This document shows, piece after piece, positions 23,457-46,842 of a DNA stretch of 48,995 nucleotides. The first letter of the stretch is position 1; the number at the start of each line of letters is the position of its first letter. Both the position numbers and the translations under genes were made by a program. Under the pieces are notes generated by a model that saw nothing but the letters and a program-made list of their open reading frames with translations, ran no database searches and had not been told where the DNA came from. Origin of the DNA: Treponema sp. (GTDB lineage: Bacteria > Spirochaetota > Spirochaetia > Treponematales > Breznakiellaceae); the NCBI GenBank assembly GCA_009784775.1, contig WQXQ01000005.1:1-48995 (forward strand), read 5' to 3'.

Positions 23457-25424
23457 TCACGTATTTTTACCCGCATGCGCGACGCGGATGATTGGTTTTT
23501 CGGGGGCTTTGCGCGAAAAGGTGCAGGCTCTGAGGGCGGCATCGGCGGGGAGGGTGGCAAAGGAACAGTAGTTTTTGACTTCAATTTCGTCGACTAAACG
23601 CCCGGGAATACCGCCGGCCTGCATCAAAAGGGCGGCGATGTCTCTGGCGCTTGCGCCATGCTGCCGTCCGTGGCCTATGTATAAGCGGGTAAATTCCTCC
23701 ATACTTGAGCGGCCGCGCCGCGGTTCGTCACGGTTTCGGTCACCGATCCTGCCGGCACCGAAGGCGGCGCCTCGGGTAGTGCCCCGGACAGCGCCTCTTG
23801 CGAAACCTCTGCCGCCGCCTCTGATGGCGCTTTTGGCGGGTTCTTTAAAGTCTTCCTCGGAGAATTCGGTGATATGGCTGTACCGGGAAGAATCAAATAA
23901 ATTGCCATAATTCAATAAAACCAACGCCTCAACTGCCCTTTCTGCGCCAAGCCGCTCAATCAGGTTGTGGCAAACTTTGGCAATAAAAGGCGAACCGGCG
24001 GCGGGCGTTTCCTCGGCAGATGGAGCGACCGCTGTTTCCGGTGATTCCGCCGCCAAATCAAGTTCCTGTTCGGGCAGGGTGGCAATGGCCGCAGCAGCGA
24101 TACGGCGGCGCAGGGATTTCATAACCGACTTTACCGATGGCACCTTGAGCCACAGGATGCCGCTGCCCAAATTCCGCTCCATCATTCGTGAGAATTGGTG
24201 TACACGGTGGCGATCGGCAAGGGTTGCCAGGCTTATTGCGATACTGCGCCGCCCTGCCCTGCCCGTTCTGCCGATGCGGTGCAGATAGGTTTCGCGGTCG
24301 TTGGGAAGGTCCCAGTTAATCACATGACTGAGGCTTGCGATGTCCAGCCCCCGCGCCGCGACATCGGTGGCAACCAGGATTGCCGGTTCGGCTGTTGCGG
24401 CGGCAGCACTCCCATCAGCGGCGCGGTGACGCAAGCCGCTTTGGCGCAGACGGAAACGCCGCAGGGTGCGTTCACGAATTTCCTGGGAAAGATCGCCGTG
24501 AATGGCCTCGGCCGGATAACCGGCCTCAACCAGACGGCGGGCAAGCTCATCGGTTTCCACTTTGGTGGCGCAAAAAATAAGCCCGTAAAATTCGGCGGCG
24601 CTGTCAATAATGCGCCTGAGGGCTTCCAGTTTATCTTCACGTTTAACGATAATGCAAAATTGGTCTACCAGAGGTTTTTCATCATCCGGTGCGGCATCTA
24701 CGATAATTTCAGCGTCACCGATATGTTTTCGTACCACTTTAATAATTGGTTCGGGCATGGTGGCGGAAAAAAGGGCTATATGCAAGGCAGTGGTGCCCGC
24801 ACCAGAAGTGCCCGCGCGTTCGCGCTCATCGGTTTTAACGGCAGCGAGTATTTTTTCCACATCCTCAAAAAAGCCCATATCCAGCATTTCGTCGGCTTCA
24901 TCAAGAATGAACCAATCCACCGTGCCAAGGTCCAGGGCCTTTCGTTCCATCAGGTCCATAACGCGGCCCGGAGTGCCTACCACTATTTCTGTTCCCCGCC
25001 GCAGGTCGAGTATCTGGTTTCTGATTGAAGCGCCGCCATACACGGCCGTTATCCGGGGATAGTTGCCGGAAACCAGCGAGGCAATCTCTCTGGACACCTG
25101 CAGCGCAAGTTCACGGGTGGGGGCAAGAATCAACGCGCGGGGGGTATGGCTGGCCTGGGTAAGCCGTTCGATAAGCGGAATACCAAAGGCAGCGGTTTTT
25201 CCCGTTCCCGTACGGGCCTTTACGATACAATGCCCCTCATCGGCCAGCAGCCGGGGCAGGGCTATGGATTGAATGTTTGTGGGTCCCGTCCACCCCTTGC
25301 GGCTAATAGCCCGTAATAAAGCATCAGACAGCCCAAATGAGGCAAAGGGATGGGGGGAGGAGGGTTGCAACGACTGAGTTTCTGAAGATTGAGTTTCTAA
25401 AGGATGGTTTTGGTCAGTTGTCAT
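23457..25424 (-). CDS. DEAD-box RNA helicase with DbpA-like RNA-binding domain
   Basis: 655 residues. Helicase motifs in order: Q motif (GPTNIQ), I (ARTGTGKT), Ia (PTRELALQ), Ib (TPGR), II (DEAD), III (SAT), IV-V (ATDVAARGLD), VI (HRIGRTGRAGR). A Gly/Arg/Ala linker follows (RGGGRGFARGAVRGTTRGAA). The C-terminal about 75 residues (FTRLYIGHGRQHGASARDIA, then GRLVDEIEVKNYCSFATLP) fit the DbpA RNA-binding domain, which in E. coli DbpA recognises 23S hairpin 92. A role in 50S assembly is therefore likely. The N-terminus is Ser/Gln/Thr-rich low complexity. No Shine-Dalgarno is visible: the repeat element at 25434-25544 ends 9 nt before the ATG. Confidence 0.93.
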   Translation of the reverse strand: MTTDQNHPLETQSSETQSLQPSSPHPFASFGLSDALLRAISRKGWTGPTNIQSIALPRLLADEGHCIVKARTGTGKTAAFGIPLIERLTQASHTPRALILAPTRELALQVSREIASLVSGNYPRITAVYGGASIRNQILDLRRGTEIVVGTPGRVMDLMERKALDLGTVDWFILDEADEMLDMGFFEDVEKILAAVKTDERERAGTSGAGTTALHIALFSATMPEPIIKVVRKHIGDAEIIVDAAPDDEKPLVDQFCIIVKREDKLEALRRIIDSAAEFYGLIFCATKVETDELARRLVEAGYPAEAIHGDLSQEIRERTLRRFRLRQSGLRHRAADGSAAAATAEPAILVATDVAARGLDIASLSHVINWDLPNDRETYLHRIGRTGRAGRRSIAISLATLADRHRVHQFSRMMERNLGSGILWLKVPSVKSVMKSLRRRIAAAAIATLPEQELDLAAESPETAVAPSAEETPAAGSPFIAKVCHNLIERLGAERAVEALVLLNYGNLFDSSRYSHITEFSEEDFKEPAKSAIRGGGRGFARGAVRGTTRGAAFGAGRIGDRNRDEPRRGRSSMEEFTRLYIGHGRQHGASARDIAALLMQAGGIPGRLVDEIEVKNYCSFATLPADAALRACTFSRKAPEKPIIRVAHAGKNT

Positions 25425-25433
25425 GTTTTGTTA

Positions 25434-25544
25434 GGGACTAGGGACTGGGGACTAGGGACTGGGGATTGTTGTTCGTTATCTAAGCGTATTAGCAACCCGC
25501 TATGCTTTGTAACAACACTCCCCAGTCCCTAGTCCCTGATCCCT
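25434..25544. repeat. Palindromic heptamer-arm repeat element, copy 1
   Basis: The left arm is four heptamers plus GGGA: GGGACTA, GGGACTG, GGGACTA, GGGACTG (25434-25465). The right arm is its inverse, CCCCAGT CCCTAGT CCCT (about 25520-25537) plus GATCCCT. The 53-nt core (25466-25518) shares TTGTTCG, TCTrAGCG, GCAACCCGC and ATGCTT, in the same order and spacing, with the copy at 35004-35122. The element fills almost the whole gap between the ABC ATPase stop (25550) and the helicase start (25424). Confidence 0.85.
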
Positions 25545-25549
25545 ATTTC

Positions 25550-26656
25550 CTACTTCCCCGGTCCCGGCAGTATGGCTTTTTCGGTTTCTTTGTCGAAATA
25601 GCGGGCTTTTTCCATTCGGGGAACAAATGTGGCCGTATCGCCAACCGTAAACGTATAGTGAGGCTCGGTACGGGCGACCAAAGGCTGACTTCCGGTACTC
25701 AGCCACAGGTGAATATCCGCGCCCAACGGCTCAACGACGGTTATTTTAACGGCAAAGCTGTTGGGGGCATTGTTTTCGATATAGTTCATATCTTCCGGGC
25801 GAATGCCAAAGAATACTTCCTTGCCAATATGATCTTTGAGATATTCAAGATGGGCTGGATCCGGCTTAATTTTGAAGGAACCTTCGTCCAGAAGGATTGA
25901 ATCGCCCTCTTCCAGTACTTTGACGGTAAGGAAGTTCATGGGCGGGGAACCAATAAAGCCGGCAACAAACTTGTTATCGGGGTGGTTATACAGGTACAAG
26001 GGAGACCCAATTTGCTGAATAAACCCGTCTTTCATAACCACGATTTTATTTGCCATGGTCATGGCTTCTACCTGATCATGGGTAACATACATCATGGTGG
26101 CATTCAACTGCAGGTGCAGGTTGGAAAGTTCCGCCCGCATCTGTACGCGCAGTTTGGCATCCAGGTTGGAAAGCGGTTCGTCAAAAAGGAATACTTTGGG
26201 GTTACGGACAATAGCCCGTCCTACTGCAACACGCTGCCGCTGACCGCCGGAGAGCGCCTTGGGCTTGCGATCCAGTAATTTTTCGATATCCAGGATTTTC
26301 GCCGCTTTTTTAACCCGCTGGTCAATTTCGTCCTTGGGGACTTTCTTAATCCGCAGACCAAACGCCATATTTTCATAGACGCTCATGTGGGGATAAAGGG
26401 CGTAGTTCTGGAATACCATGGCGATATTCCGGTCCTTGGGGGGAACATCGTTCATCAACTCACCGTCGATGTACAGTTCGCCTTCGGTAATTTCCTCAAG
26501 CCCTGCTACCATGCGGAGGGTGGTGGATTTACCGCACCACGATGGTCCTACTAAAACGACAAATTCCTTGTCCTCGACCACAATGTTGGCGTTTTCCACG
26601 GCACGAACGCCGCCTTCATACACCTTACCAATGCTTTTCAATTCTACTTTTGCCAT
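25550..26656 (-). CDS. ABC transporter ATPase, MsmK/UgpC type
   Basis: 368 residues. Walker A is GPSWCGKST, Q-loop FQNYALYPHM, signature LSGGQRQRV, Walker B VFLFDEPLSNLD, H-loop YVTHDQ. The C-terminal half (about 240-368) is the MalK-type OB/TOBE region (FFGIRPEDM; FAVKITVVEPLGADIHLWLS). Such ATPases energise carbohydrate or glycerol-phosphate importers and are often shared by several. No permease or binding-protein gene is adjacent, so it is probably such an orphan. The Trp in Walker A replaces a Gly that is nearly invariant in this family (GPSGCGKST); GGG to TGG is one base. The general GxxxxGKS pattern is kept. Confidence 0.93.
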   Translation of the reverse strand: MAKVELKSIGKVYEGGVRAVENANIVVEDKEFVVLVGPSWCGKSTTLRMVAGLEEITEGELYIDGELMNDVPPKDRNIAMVFQNYALYPHMSVYENMAFGLRIKKVPKDEIDQRVKKAAKILDIEKLLDRKPKALSGGQRQRVAVGRAIVRNPKVFLFDEPLSNLDAKLRVQMRAELSNLHLQLNATMMYVTHDQVEAMTMANKIVVMKDGFIQQIGSPLYLYNHPDNKFVAGFIGSPPMNFLTVKVLEEGDSILLDEGSFKIKPDPAHLEYLKDHIGKEVFFGIRPEDMNYIENNAPNSFAVKITVVEPLGADIHLWLSTGSQPLVARTEPHYTFTVGDTATFVPRMEKARYFDKETEKAILPGPGK

Positions 26657-33679: not shown

Positions 33680-34855
33680 ATGAGAATTGATATACGAAAA
33701 AAGCTCGATTTCTGGCGTTTTTACTCATTTGAACAGGAACAGTACCAGAAGTGTATGGATAAACTATTCATCAATAATCTGTATAACCTGCATAAAATAA
33801 ATATAGCGTTCGCCATTTGTGTGGGTTGTTCCACACTCTACCCCATATTGGTCGATAAAGACCTTATAAAAGCGGGCATTTACCTTACAGTGGCTATTGT
33901 CGCGCTTCTGCTTGCCGTTTTTGCGAACTATAAAATGCAAACAGCGCTGGTAAATAACCGGCTTATCTATATATTAACAACGTTATTTTATATAAATGTG
34001 ATGTCATTTGGCATATATATGTGCGTATGGGCAACCCCGGATAAATTAGCAACGACTTTTTTATGTTTTTTGATATGCGCTCTGCTGATGTTTGTCAATT
34101 CACCCCGGTTTAACCTGAGTCTTACATTAGGCGCAATCATCGTTTTTACGATATCCACCGTTATGATTAAATCCCCCGAAAATTATTTTGTTGATATTAT
34201 AAACACCTGTATTGCCGGGCTTATCAGTCTGTCTTTTAACTGGCAAATCACCAGACTGCGGATAGGACTGGAATTAAGCACCAGTATGCTGGAAGATGAT
34301 CGTGACAAATACCTTGATCAAAGCACCACAGACGAACTAACCCAGTTGAGCAACCGCAGGGACTTTATGCAAACATTTCAGCGGTATCTGTCCAATTACA
34401 GAACTTCGGATGACTGGTTGTGCGTTGCTATTTCCGACATCGATTTTTTCAAGAACTACAACGATCATTACGGACACCCGCAGGGTGATGAATGCCTGCG
34501 TTCGATTGGCAGGGCATTTAACCAATTGAAAGAAAACCTGGGTGTGTATGCCGCTCGAGTCGGCGGAGAAGAATTTGCCATACTGTGGTTCGAGAAAGAT
34601 ATTTCCCACGTGGACACGGTCGTTTCCGATATGACCAACCTGATAAAGGAACTTAAAATTCCTCATGCAAAATCAAAAGTATCGGAATATGTAACCATGA
34701 GCATGGGAATATATGTGGAACGATGCGGCTCAACCACTGATGAGCAAACCCTGTACGATTTAGCCGATAAAGCGCTGTACGCCGCAAAAGGGAGCGGACG
34801 TAACTGCACGATTGTCTGCGGCAGAGAAATTGCACAATACAAGATACCGGTTTAA
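33680..34855 (+). CDS. Membrane diguanylate cyclase (GGDEF)
   Basis: 391 residues from the ATG at 33680 (MRIDIRKKLDFWRFY); the in-frame GTG at 33662 overlaps the -10 box and is rejected. Six hydrophobic segments lie at about 38-195. The GGDEF domain runs from about 215: DELTQLSNRRDFM, DIDFFKNYNDHYGHPQGDEC, and the active-site loop GGEEF, so it should make cyclic di-GMP from GTP. No RxxD inhibitory site is present before GGEEF (the place reads ENLGVYAARV), so product inhibition is not expected. There is no Shine-Dalgarno. The stop overlaps the start of the RNase gene (TAATG). Confidence 0.92.
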   Translation: MRIDIRKKLDFWRFYSFEQEQYQKCMDKLFINNLYNLHKINIAFAICVGCSTLYPILVDKDLIKAGIYLTVAIVALLLAVFANYKMQTALVNNRLIYILTTLFYINVMSFGIYMCVWATPDKLATTFLCFLICALLMFVNSPRFNLSLTLGAIIVFTISTVMIKSPENYFVDIINTCIAGLISLSFNWQITRLRIGLELSTSMLEDDRDKYLDQSTTDELTQLSNRRDFMQTFQRYLSNYRTSDDWLCVAISDIDFFKNYNDHYGHPQGDECLRSIGRAFNQLKENLGVYAARVGGEEFAILWFEKDISHVDTVVSDMTNLIKELKIPHAKSKVSEYVTMSMGIYVERCGSTTDEQTLYDLADKALYAAKGSGRNCTIVCGREIAQYKIPV

Positions 34856-36828
34856 TGGTAAAAGAACACGCTCTGGCGGTATATAAAAACAAACCCGCGC
34901 TCATCAAAGAAATAAATCAGGACAAAATCGTAATTACTCTTTCCGATGGCACTGCAATAAAAGTGCGGGAAAAGGATATTGAGATTATTCATCCGGGACC
35001 GGTGGGGAGTGGGGACTGGGGACTAGGGACTAGGGATCTTTGTTCGCAGTCTGAGCGCGTTGGCAACCCGCCATGCTTGCAAACTAATATCCCCAGTCCC
35101 CAGTCCCCAGTCCCTAGTCCCCTCCATGATGCGTGGGAATTGCTTGTTGCTGATGGGGCTTCGGTTCCTTTGCAAGAGCTGGCGGAACTTGTTTTTGGGG
35201 AATTTAGTCCTGCTGCGGCCTGGAATGCATACTGCCTGTTGATGGATGGATTGTATTTCACCGGAAACATAGACGCCATACAGGCGCGGCAACGGGAACT
35301 GGTTGAAGCGGATGAAAAAAAACGTGAAGAAAAACAAAAGGCAAGCAATGAACGGGAAGAATTTTTACAACGACTGCGCGATCGCCAACCATATATAATA
35401 AAAGAACAAAGAACAGAGAACAAAGAACAGGAAGCAGAGAATGTTGCTGATGACAGGCGATTCATACAGGATGTTGAGGCGCTGGCTTTTGGAAAAACGG
35501 CTAAAAGCCGCACCATGAAGGACATTGGTCTGGGGGAAACGCCGGAAGAGGCCCATGCGTTGCTTTTGGAAAGCGGATTCTGGACAACGCAGATAAATCC
35601 GCACCCAAGCCGTTTTGGTATTGCACTACTGCCGGCCAGACACAACCCCGGCCCGCCGCCGGAAGAAAATCGCCGCGATCTGACCCATTTGACAGCCTTT
35701 GCCATTGACAGCCCCTGGAGCCATGATCCCGATGATGCCATTTCTGTTGAACTGAATGACGACAAACACATTTTGTATGTCCATGTGGCCGACCCTGCCG
35801 CTGCAATCGGCATGGACAGCCCGGTTGAACGCGAAGCCCGCGATCGCGGGGCAACGCTCTATATTCCCGAAGGCAGCTTCCGCATGATCGCCGATGAAGC
35901 CCTGCCTGTGTTCGCCCTTGGCCTTACGGAAATATCCCCGGCATTGACTTTCAGGATGACGCTTAACAGCAGCGGCGAAATTGACGACACGGCAATTTTT
36001 CCGTCAATGGTAAAAGTATCGCGCTTAACCTATGAAGAGGCTGATACAATGTTGGACAATGCGGGAACAAGCGTGTTACACAATCTGTACGCGCTGGCTG
36101 AACGTAATAGCAACCGCCGTTCCGCCGCAGGGGCAATATTCATTGATATGCCGGAAATCCACATCAGTATGGAACAGGGACAGGTGGCAATCGAACCGAT
36201 TGTCCGGCACCGTTCGGCGGACATGGTACGGGAATGTATGCTTCTTGCCAGCGAAGGGGCCAGCAACTGGGCCATGCAGCGCAAGGTACCCATCCCCTAC
36301 ATTGAACAGGAAACAGGAGACTTACCCGATGAAATACTTCCCGGCATGGCTGGATCGTATCAACTTCGCCGTTGCATGCGGCCCCGCATTCTTTCGGCAA
36401 AACCGGGGCGGCATTGGGGTCTTGGTCTGGACAGTTACAGCCAGGTAACCAGCCCCCTGCGCCGCTACACAGACCTTCTGGCCCACATCCAAATCCGCGC
36501 CTTTTTGGGCGGCGGGAAACCCCTGCCCGCCGATGAGCTTGCGGCGCGAATTGCCGCCGGAGAAGCGGCAGGGTCGGCGGTGACTCAGGCCGAACGGGCA
36601 TCGCGCAATCACTGGATTATGGTCTACCTTTCAGATAAAAAAAACTCGGTATGGGACGCTATCGCTCTGGAAAAAAAAGGGACCCGCTGGGCAATGGTTA
36701 TTCCCGCCCTTGCTCTGGAAACGCAGGTTCCCATCAGAAAAGACATAACACCTAACGATCCGCTGAAATTGATTCTAAAATCGGTTAATATTCCCTGCAG
36801 AGAAGCAATGTTTGCGGTTGAAGAGTAG
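34855..36828 (+). CDS. RNase II/R-family exoribonuclease with repeat insertion
   Basis: 657 residues. The RNB domain starts near 280: FAIDSPWSHDPDDAIS has the metal-binding Asp cluster. LYVHVADPAAAI, SRLTYEEAD and YSQVTSPLRRYTDLLAHIQI are further RNB motifs. It should degrade RNA 3' to 5'. The N-terminal 1-50 is a small domain (ITLSDGTAIKVREKDIEIIH); 90-140 looks like a winged-helix part. Residues 51-90 are encoded by the repeat element at 35004-35122, and residues 183-196 by a heptamer tract (KEQRTENKEQ). Both are in frame and lie outside the catalytic domain. No clear C-terminal S1 domain is seen. Translation is coupled to the GGDEF gene. Confidence 0.88.
   Translation: MVKEHALAVYKNKPALIKEINQDKIVITLSDGTAIKVREKDIEIIHPGPVGSGDWGLGTRDLCSQSERVGNPPCLQTNIPSPQSPVPSPLHDAWELLVADGASVPLQELAELVFGEFSPAAAWNAYCLLMDGLYFTGNIDAIQARQRELVEADEKKREEKQKASNEREEFLQRLRDRQPYIIKEQRTENKEQEAENVADDRRFIQDVEALAFGKTAKSRTMKDIGLGETPEEAHALLLESGFWTTQINPHPSRFGIALLPARHNPGPPPEENRRDLTHLTAFAIDSPWSHDPDDAISVELNDDKHILYVHVADPAAAIGMDSPVEREARDRGATLYIPEGSFRMIADEALPVFALGLTEISPALTFRMTLNSSGEIDDTAIFPSMVKVSRLTYEEADTMLDNAGTSVLHNLYALAERNSNRRSAAGAIFIDMPEIHISMEQGQVAIEPIVRHRSADMVRECMLLASEGASNWAMQRKVPIPYIEQETGDLPDEILPGMAGSYQLRRCMRPRILSAKPGRHWGLGLDSYSQVTSPLRRYTDLLAHIQIRAFLGGGKPLPADELAARIAAGEAAGSAVTQAERASRNHWIMVYLSDKKNSVWDAIALEKKGTRWAMVIPALALETQVPIRKDITPNDPLKLILKSVNIPCREAMFAVEE
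35004..35122. repeat. Palindromic heptamer-arm repeat element, copy 2 (in frame)
   Basis: Left arm GGGGAGT GGGGACT GGGGACT AGGGACT AGGGA (35004-35036). Right arm is the inverse, with CCCAGT/CCCTAGT units (35090-35122). The 53-nt core (35037-35089) aligns to copy 1 without gaps over TTTGTTCG...ATGCTT. Most differences are transitions. The element encodes about 40 residues (GSGDWGLGTRDL... then NIPSPQSPVPSPL) without a stop. Confidence 0.9.
35401..35442 (+). repeat. Tandem heptamer tract (AAAGAAC) in the RNase gene
   Basis: Six consecutive 7-mers: AAAGAAC, AAAGAAC, AGAGAAC, AAAGAAC, AGGAAGC, AGAGAAT. Because 7 is not a multiple of 3, the units are read in all three frames, giving KEQRTENKEQEAEN. 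No inverted partner arm is present nearby. Confidence 0.75.
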
Positions 36829-45904: not shown

Positions 45905-46842
45905 GTAAAAACACCTTAAGAATTTTTACCACGAACCAACACGAACCAACACGAACAAAAGGAAAATGTGGGAGTATGGGTTCGTGGTTAATTATTGTAT
46001 TCTTTCTTTTAACAATGCCATCCTGTGCGCGGCAGGTGCAGCAAGAGGGGACTTTGATTGCGGTGAGTATTGTGCCGCAGGAATGGTTTGTGTCCCGCAT
46101 CGGCGGAGATGAGATACAAACACTGGTGCTGGCAGGGCCGGGACAGAATCCCCATAACTATGAACCTACGCCCAAACAGATACGCAGCCTCTCGCAGGCC
46201 GGCGCATGGATTCTTTCCGGCGCTGAATTTGAAATAAGCCTTCGCTCCAAAATCGAACGGATCTTTCCTGCCCTGCCCATTATTGACGGCACTGCCGGCG
46301 TAACGTTTAGAACGCTGGACGAACATATATGCGATGATGATACACACGAACATCATGGGTTAGCAATTGATCGTCACACCTGGCTGGGATCAGAACCGGC
46401 AAAAATACTTGCCGCGCATATTCGGGATACGCTTTCCGCGATTAATCCTGACGGAGCGGAACAGTACGAGGAACGGTTTCAACTGCTGACGCAGGATATT
46501 GATGATGCATTTGCCGCCCTGCGCATTGAACTTGCCCCGCTCAGAGGCAGCAATGTGTTTGTGTACCACCCCAGCTTTGGCTATTTTCTGGATGAATTTG
46601 GCATTAGCCAGCAAGCTGTGGAAACCGGCGGCAAATCACCCGGTCCCCGCGACCTGAACCGCCTGATAACCCTGGCCCTGCAGGAACAGCCTGCGGCAAT
46701 TTTTGTACAGGCCCAGTTCCCCGCCAGCGCCGCCCAAGCCGTTGCCGATGCCGTTGGCGCGCAGCTTATCAGCCTGGATCCTCTGGCCCCGGACTGGCTT
46801 GCCAACATCCGGCGCATGGGAACAGCGTTAATACAGTTTTGA
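45901..46842 (+). CDS. ZnuA-like metal-binding lipoprotein
   Basis: 313 residues. The solute-binding A-1 family (zinc/manganese) is indicated by PHNYEPTPKQIRSLSQAGAW (His ligand), a short His/Asp-rich loop (DDDTHEHHG), HTWLGSEPAKILAA (His), and VYHPSFGYFLDEFG (His). The signal is MGSWLIIVFFLLTMPSC, with lipobox Cys 42 from the annotated ATG. Residues 10-30 before the signal are encoded by a palindromic repeat (45928-45988). A start at 45976 would remove most of it but lacks a spaced ribosome-binding site. No permease or ATPase gene is adjacent. Confidence 0.9.
   Translation: MSKNTLRIFTTNQHEPTRTKGKCGSMGSWLIIVFFLLTMPSCARQVQQEGTLIAVSIVPQEWFVSRIGGDEIQTLVLAGPGQNPHNYEPTPKQIRSLSQAGAWILSGAEFEISLRSKIERIFPALPIIDGTAGVTFRTLDEHICDDDTHEHHGLAIDRHTWLGSEPAKILAAHIRDTLSAINPDGAEQYEERFQLLTQDIDDAFAALRIELAPLRGSNVFVYHPSFGYFLDEFGISQQAVETGGKSPGPRDLNRLITLALQEQPAAIFVQAQFPASAAQAVADAVGAQLISLDPLAPDWLANIRRMGTALIQF
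45928..45988. repeat. Palindrome with 10-bp tandem units in the ZnuA-like gene leader
   Basis: ACCACGAACC (45928-45937) and GGTTCGTGGT (45979-45988) are exact inverse copies. Between them the unit CACGAACCAA is repeated (45930-45956). The repeat is read as TTNQHEPTRTKGKCGSMGSW without a stop. Confidence 0.8.

Follow-up and report, generated by a model that had tools for sequence, protein, structure and literature searches.

The heptamer repeats of cyanobacteria are known as STRRs, and the individual types carry their own names and units. In Nostoc, GGGGA(C/T)T forms G-rich arrays in which four units are preferred and which are over-represented outside genes (PMC4692102). These share with the element described here the heptamer (GGGACTG, taken on the opposite strand and rotated, becomes CCCCAGT), but they are presented in that account as tandem repeats with no conserved core, whereas the present element has one. 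The GGGAATC heptamers of Xanthomonas form tandem arrays in inverted pairs, as here; 70 and 75 convergent pairs are reported for two species, 89-93% of them intergenic, and the same account describes no core family (PMC4692102). The P6b stem-loop of the Nostoc tRNA-Leu(UAA) intron is a stem of 7-nt repeats of two classes, TDNGATT and NNTGAGT, one of which is reported to have repeatedly replaced the other (PMC4476775). The logic of heptamer-stem swapping is the same as in our element, but P6b is a single locus in a group I intron. Finally, the TAACTGA heptamer arrays of Beggiatoaceae have a patchy cross-phylum distribution and a stop content that limits their placement in ORFs; unlike the inverted element they are described as direct repeats, with 169 sets and one indirect repeat (PMC4679880).

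Protein-coding palindromes in numbers like those found here have been described for Rickettsia and its kin. Rickettsia palindromic elements (RPEs) comprise ten families of 100-150 bp, with many copies lying in frame in conserved and essential genes, and related species may hold different palindromes in one gene (PMC3767692, PMC2229807, PMC10969869). Like RPEs and the protein-coding palindromes of Wolbachia, the present element is dispersed, lies in frame and has homologues of its host genes without the insert; unlike them, it belongs to a different phylum, has a stem of tandem heptamers and carries an arm unit that is exchangeable on a conserved core. Its host does not appear to be Rickettsia or Wolbachia, the hosts by which RPEs are defined, and we make no claim of membership: the element appears to work like an RPE, and its heptamer stems look like the cyanobacterial and Xanthomonas repeats. 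In-frame coding palindromes, inverted heptamer pairs and class-switching heptamer stems are each known; their combination is new. The initial annotation had called a heptamer-armed coding element in a spirochaete unusual; our search of the literature, whose coverage leaves out most subscription journals, turned up no such element in spirochaetes. The element would be a second case in a distant group, in about 19 genes including those for two tRNA synthetases, Lon and PriA, and how selfish repeats become parts of proteins would become testable.

The element was noticed in a 48,995-nucleotide stretch of DNA (hereafter, the window), where 35004-35122 had been read as arms of tandem GGGACTR 7-mers in inverse orientation around a core. 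This is what is there: a heptamer-armed inverted repeat of 117 nt, in which GGGACTR and YAGTCCC arms flank a core of 49 nt. The features of this copy and of a second one in the window are as follows.

34855..36828, + strand: RNase II/R-family gene, 657 aa (RNB, HTH_RNase_II, wH_RNase_II), hosting the element in frame at residues 51-89
35005..35038, + strand: left arm, tandem GGGACTR-type heptamers
35039..35087, - strand: core, an imperfect palindrome of 49 nt (62.4 bits, E 1.1e-13 with model R1, for which it was itself one of the 21 training sequences)
35088..35121, + strand: right arm, tandem YAGTCCC heptamers, the left-arm unit reverse-complemented
35402..35441, + strand: second heptamer tract in the RNase gene, about six tandem AAGAACA-type units without an inverted partner
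23460..25424, - strand: DEAD-box helicase carrying a DbpA domain; 9 nt separate it from the second copy
25434..25467, + strand: left heptamer arm of the second copy
25468..25516, - strand: core of the second copy (64.6 bits, E 2.9e-14; also in the training set of model R1)
25517..25543, + strand: right heptamer arm of the second copy
25553..26656, - strand: MalK-type ABC ATPase; 9 nt separate it from the second copy

As RNA, the + strand of 35004-35122 folds at -78.5 kcal/mol (z -9.2; none of 200 shuffles was as good) and the element at 25434 at -66.4 kcal/mol (z -8.4). The two cores align without gaps, as had been proposed, with 35 of 49 positions identical; the 53-nt stretches of the initial annotation, which set the second copy at 25466-25518, match at 36 of 53.

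The insert in the RNase is 39 codons long, leaves the reading frame unbroken as annotated, and lies directly against the winged-helix domain (Pfam wH_RNase_II, with its best stretch at 87-145). Matches to this protein were found in 56 of the 59 genomes searched, its own included; when the locus was aligned with 29 of the others, the insert was absent from all 29, and the reading of residues 51-90 as an insertion thereby survived the comparison with homologues proposed for it. Is it a plain addition? The linker from the IHPG-like motif to the WEL(L/M) motif measures 45 aa in this gene, whereas 25 anchored relatives have 19-28 aa (the other four lack an anchor and were left out). About 16 residues of the ancestral linker have thus been lost, the element stands in their place, and the protein is longer by about 22 residues net; the annotated gain of about 40 residues holds for the element (39 codons) but not for the protein. 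At the tract at 35402-35441 too, aligned relatives are shorter. Its AAGAACA unit, searched as a three-unit pattern, has 7+5 matches in the genome (control, 0) and occurs in three of 28 other genomes searched.

The genome that holds the window (G000) comprises 2,403,091 bases in 153 contigs and is 92.7% complete. The pattern GGGACTRGGGACTR, with at most one mismatch, matches it 174+190 times, against 1+1 for the reversed control pattern, so that the repeat is not a matter of chance. In the fetched stretches a script identified 61 arm groups and at least 47 complete arm-core-arm pairs of GGGACTR type, 96-171 bp long; this is a lower bound, as the core model later added two GGGACTR sites (C37:9848, C81:8517). 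With these further copies, and with no homologue carrying residues 51-90, the overall interpretation in the initial annotation is supported. It did not extend to the roughly 20 in-frame copies, the loss of ancestral linker, the exchangeable arms or the inverted GGGACTR pairs in other phyla. FlaA is a marker of spirochaetes, and a FlaA (PF04620) gene adjoins one copy; from this the host looks like a spirochaete.

We think that the element is probably a non-autonomous mobile palindrome of one spirochaete-like genus, with a conserved core, exchangeable arms and in-gene copies that are translated as linker. Its conserved unit would be the hairpin core of about 49 nt, and its stem would be made by complementary tandem-heptamer arms whose unit depends on the species and on the copy. 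New copies would land between genes or, in frame, in the linkers and loops of proteins; those that break genes would be removed by selection and others left to be translated as linker, with GGGACTG/CAGTCCC arms compatible with coding at any phase. Spread may depend on a trans-acting recombinase or on replication-coupled copying of the hairpin, and arms may change by slippage together with hairpin-templated copying.

That a single core sits at dozens of sites and is missing from the tested homologues implies copying to new places; we infer movement from this distribution rather than from a filled and an empty site in near-identical strains. The element has terminal inverted repeats, as MITEs do. 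No target-site duplication was found in 47 copies (the longest direct repeat in the flanks averaged 3.04 nt, against 3.15 when flanks were re-paired), and the outer flanks lean to purine toward the element (0.62-0.65). At E 1e-5 nothing in phage and plasmid collections matched the element, with the BLAST low-complexity filter on, which may hide the arms. Neither a mobilizing enzyme nor an autonomous copy was found at the Y1 loci examined or in a search for RVT_1. The latter reverse transcriptase domain (PF00078) is absent from the genome itself and present in 10 of the genus's 35 other genomes; as these include both carriers of elements and genomes lacking them, no link was seen.

REPINs are also dispersed hairpins (PMC3116915), and the present one, at about 117 nt and in many copies, could be REPIN-like and be mobilized by a Y1 (RAYT) transposase, the more so as there are two Y1_Tnp matches in this genome and three in a related one (G009). 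We nevertheless consider this unlikely. For 20 of the 33 Y1 matches the flanks were fetched, and they contain no core; further stretches at the two Y1 genes of this genome and the three of G009 are coreless except for one weak hit (E 0.38). The sole R1 hit of the flank search is a known copy (L052), about 3.4 kb from the Y1 gene on contig C65. Another relative, G005, has 18 core places but no Y1 match (its genome is 77% complete). No RAYT link was thus found for the element, nor is it extragenic, as REPINs are described to be (PMC3116915): 20 of its 47 complete copies lie in ORFs.

A mobile palindrome with exchangeable arms remains our preferred reading, and for this the relation of core to arms is central. 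The two are separable, and what is invariant in the arms is the 7-nt period. The covariance model R1, built from 21 cores, was used to score up to 150 candidates per genome. In the genome of the window it found 45 distinct places (51 matches on both strands; 21 of the places are the training set), and in related species 18 places in G005 (21 matches), 17 in G009 (19 matches) and three in G015. Ten other genomes of the genus gave one to seven weak matches each, several only about 30 nt long, and 13 searched genomes of other genera gave none. Several types of heptamer unit coexist in each genome. At 40 fetched core sites the arm units, which were read by eye and are ambiguous in some G005 copies, were AAGAACA, ATGAGRA, GTGAACA/GTTAACA, GGGAGTR, GGGAACA and GGGACTR, with some unclear. 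The units vary with the species: G015 has GGGATCR, GGGACCR and GGGAACA, and G026 has a mixture. Self-similarity of the flanks at lag 7 was 0.73 for 26 GGGACTR sites of the genome, 0.66 for its 10 sites with other arms, 0.58 for 14 sites of G005 and 0.60 for 11 of G009, against 0.23-0.24 some 300 nt away; lag 14 was the sole other lag above 0.40. The two arms of a copy match each other at 0.71, against 0.58 between copies (64 copies, one random re-pairing). When the arms were sought by a loose GGGANNR pattern, G000, G009, G026 and G030 stood clearest of the control; control against count was 43/37 against 87/78 in G015, 29/55 against 11/26 in G027 and 27/33 against 0/0 in G036.

Some copies combine units. 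At G000:C130:4465-4515 the core has an AAGAACA-type left arm and an ATGAGRA-type right arm, two arm kinds in one copy, and at C78:7981-8180 and C4:34655-34863 the arms are composite, with inner GGGACTG/GGGAGTR and an AAGAACA-type array just outside.

Could all this be simple heptamers of the STRR type that expand by slippage, with palindrome and in-frame position as by-products and nothing mobile? A core with a partner arm accompanies most of the GGGACTR arms found, but unpaired arrays do occur (C54:12801, C79:2499 and the RNase tract), and inverted GGGAATC pairs are described for Xanthomonas, as are GGGGA(C/T)T arrays for Nostoc (PMC4692102). One 49-nt core nonetheless lies between unrelated arm units in several species, and since slippage in arms is unable to disperse a core, we find this explanation quite unlikely. 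Separable parts, with a core that marks ancestry and arms that turn over, would give a handle on the origin of bacterial heptamers. For GGGANTC-like units a beginning in the T-arm of tRNAs was also weighed and set aside.

Two genes allow orthologous sites to be compared under the preferred reading. In threonine synthase (ThrC) the element follows the residues ATPR both in G000 (C115) and in G009 (C13), with different arms in the two species: GGGACTR in G000, GGGAGTR/GGGAACA in G009. Among the 22 genomes compared at this site, the 18 others with an anchor have 16-33 aa of unrelated sequence, or 5 aa in G015 (two genomes lack an anchor). This linker holds another strong hairpin in G006 (z -6.7) and weaker ones in G017, G018 and G021 (z -2.5 to -2.7). 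The linker in Lon carries heptamer-armed inserts in G000 (z -8.6) and G027 (z -2.7), and in G015 a GGGATCA array with little inverted partner (z -0.9); it is 9 aa long in G009 and 4 aa in three genomes of other families, 15 relatives have 11-59 unrelated aa, and three of the 25 genomes lack an anchor. Both linkers are tolerant, and that of ThrC has been used by different palindromes, much as is described for RPE-4, -6 and -7, which sit in the same genes of different Rickettsia (PMC3767692). Since the two linkers vary freely across the genus, some in-gene sites may be old hot spots.

The 27 intergenic copies lie between genes that are co-directional in 17 cases, convergent in six and divergent in three, with one unclassified. 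Most occupy short gaps: in 24 of the 26 classified cases neither gap exceeds 60 nt, or a predicted ORF extends into the element. No split gene was found around a copy among the co-directional pairs tested. A Pfam scan of 28 neighbors gave hits on both sides of 10 of the 17 pairs, and the families differed in all 10 (four pairs had a one-sided hit, one was scanned on one side and two were unscanned). Flanking pairs include PGK/GAPDH, L9/DnaB, DnaK/DnaJ, MetRS/FemAB, SecD-SecF/LytB and helicase/MalK.

Very stable folds between co-directional genes (17 of the 26 classified copies), often filling the gap, are what one would expect if the hairpins were selected RNA elements such as mRNA stabilizers or attenuators, whose presence in genes is secondary. 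The hairpin register of the core pairs 63.5% of cells, against 26-39% when it is slid. Covariation in the alignment of 21 cores was, however, not clearly above that of shuffles (0.141 against 0.126; 68 of 500 at or above the observed value), and RNAalifold predicted no structure for the same alignment; a core that changes without clear covariation is not shown to be a selected RNA. Rfam returned only microRNA families, far below the gathering score, and essential coding sites gain nothing obvious from such a function, which makes this account very unlikely.

On the mobile-palindrome reading, copies within genes should in turn become part of the protein. Genes were called here by a codon-score script and not from an annotation. 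By these calls, 20 of the 47 complete copies lie inside ORFs with positive coding scores, 19 ORFs in all, with two copies in one MrfA-like helicase ORF. Pfam identifies the hosts as RNase II/R, ValRS, LeuRS, Lon, PriA, IspG/GcpE, HydF, ThrC, PrmC, FliP, Lnt, a YjeF-type NAD(P)H-hydrate enzyme, a phosphoglucomutase-type protein and a radical SAM protein with DUF2344, among others, and gives no hit for one ORF of 220 aa. Three cases are doubtful: the 220-aa ORF, the FliP ORF, which has only 16 residues before the element, and an OppC-OppD ORF. In the last (G000:C51:8817-8987) an OppC-like permease and an OppD-like ATPase share one ORF of 743 aa with the element between them; this may be a gene fusion made by the repeat or two genes joined at the element. 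A copy at G000:C65:8300-8464 (L052), in frame in apolipoprotein N-acyltransferase, has GGGACTR arms and a GC-rich core unlike the others.

Alignment with PDB chains placed 36 residues between aligned blocks in ValRS against 0 in the chain, 45 against 1 in Lon, 52 against 18 in HydF and 54 against 7 in ThrC; for PriA and IspG the alignments are compatible with an insert, but its borders are not fixed. The predicted peptide of an in-gene element is of the form GTGDWGLGTRD...PSPQSPVPSP. Judging from these reading frames, in-gene copies should be carried in the protein as a linker, and we infer that this protein is unspliced.

Why should GGGACTG arms be tolerated in genes? Because 7 is not a multiple of 3 (7 mod 3 = 1), the frame shifts by one at each unit, the stop content is equal in all three frames, and the arms encode one repeating peptide whatever the frame; a stop-free heptamer is therefore open in every frame, which may explain the tolerance. 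Neither strand has a stop in GGGACTG/CAGTCCC, AAGAACA/TGTTCTT, GGGAACA/TGTTCCC or GGGATCG/CGATCCC. GGGACTA, ATGAGGA, GTTAACA, GTGAACA and GGGAGTA have a stop on at least one strand, and units of the ATGAGRA and GTTAACA types have one in every frame. The argument predicts which units are gene-compatible, and can be checked in any heptamer-bearing genome.

In the in-gene copies the frame of the gene is open in 20 of 20, as a consequence of how the copies were picked, and the other frames are closed in 38 of 40 cases on the sense strand and 46 of 60 on the antisense strand; in the 27 intergenic copies 147 of 162 frames are closed. Among 10 in-gene copies with a type-A core, eight read the core in one frame and two in another. 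A simpler ORF test was applied to 38 core sites beyond the 47 pairs (10 copies of the genome with other arms and 28 from related species), and placed only two in ORFs, both in G009 and both with GGGA-type arms; the high in-gene rate is thus limited to the GGGACTR copies of the one genome. That in-gene copies are instead removed from the message or skipped by ribosomes, for which introns and mitochondrial byps are precedents, would suit their presence in essential enzymes and, in some cases, within Pfam domains, but is extremely improbable given that the gene's frame is open and the others mostly closed, and that a removed element need not keep frame.

How far does the architecture extend beyond this mobile palindrome and its genus? 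The GGGACTR element matches eight of 59 genomes: its own, six more of the genus and one of another family. In an evenly drawn sample of 296 genomes of the phylum, the inverted GGGANNR pattern hits five, the genome of the window included, and has more than one match only in that genome (79, overlapping) and in G021, the sole other member of the genus in the sample (seven, at one locus). At that locus (G021:C1:172504-172607) an inverted array has about eight GGGAGTG units in one arm and GGGAATA units in the other. Outside the phylum, with one genome each from 84,980 species, inverted GGGACTR pairs were found in at least 101 contig stretches, a count that stands without a reversed control; by their record titles these span Cyanobacteria, Proteobacteria, Acidobacteria, Gemmatimonadetes, Planctomycetes, Bacteroidetes and others. 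The core is absent from the 80 loci given out of these stretches. At most 13 of 81 elements in other phyla lie in ORFs, an upper bound because several of the ORFs are open on both strands. The heptamer-palindrome architecture thus seems widespread, and the core seems confined, as far as searched, to one genus.

It is conceivable, though we would call it speculative, that mobile hairpins of many phyla form one class, characterized by the 7-nt period and not by a sequence, whose stems are rewritten from unit to unit in place by a process that counts seven bases. Members would carry a lineage-specific core or, elsewhere, no shared core, on tandem-heptamer stems written by templated repeat addition or by hairpin copying with slippage, and a stop-free unit would make such an element a source of in-frame protein linkers. 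The period of 7 in all arm groups tested, the arm difference in ThrC, the spread of the inverted pairs across phyla and the class switching described for heptamer stems in the Nostoc tRNA-Leu intron (PMC4476775) speak for it; the lack of PF00078 in the genome and of the core at the 80 other-phylum loci speak against it.

Other repeats were seen in passing. In an uncultured bacterium (CAIMKX01 bin-0381; loci L138, L144, L156 and L163) several GGGACTAGGGACTAG elements are flanked by GACTAGTTTTTA-like sequence. In the window itself, 2288-2375 holds a 15-nt tandem repeat of about six units (GCAGAGCCGGCAGAT), which would be in frame if coding, and 45930-45956 holds a perfect 10-nt tandem repeat, CACGAACCAA, of 2.7 units.
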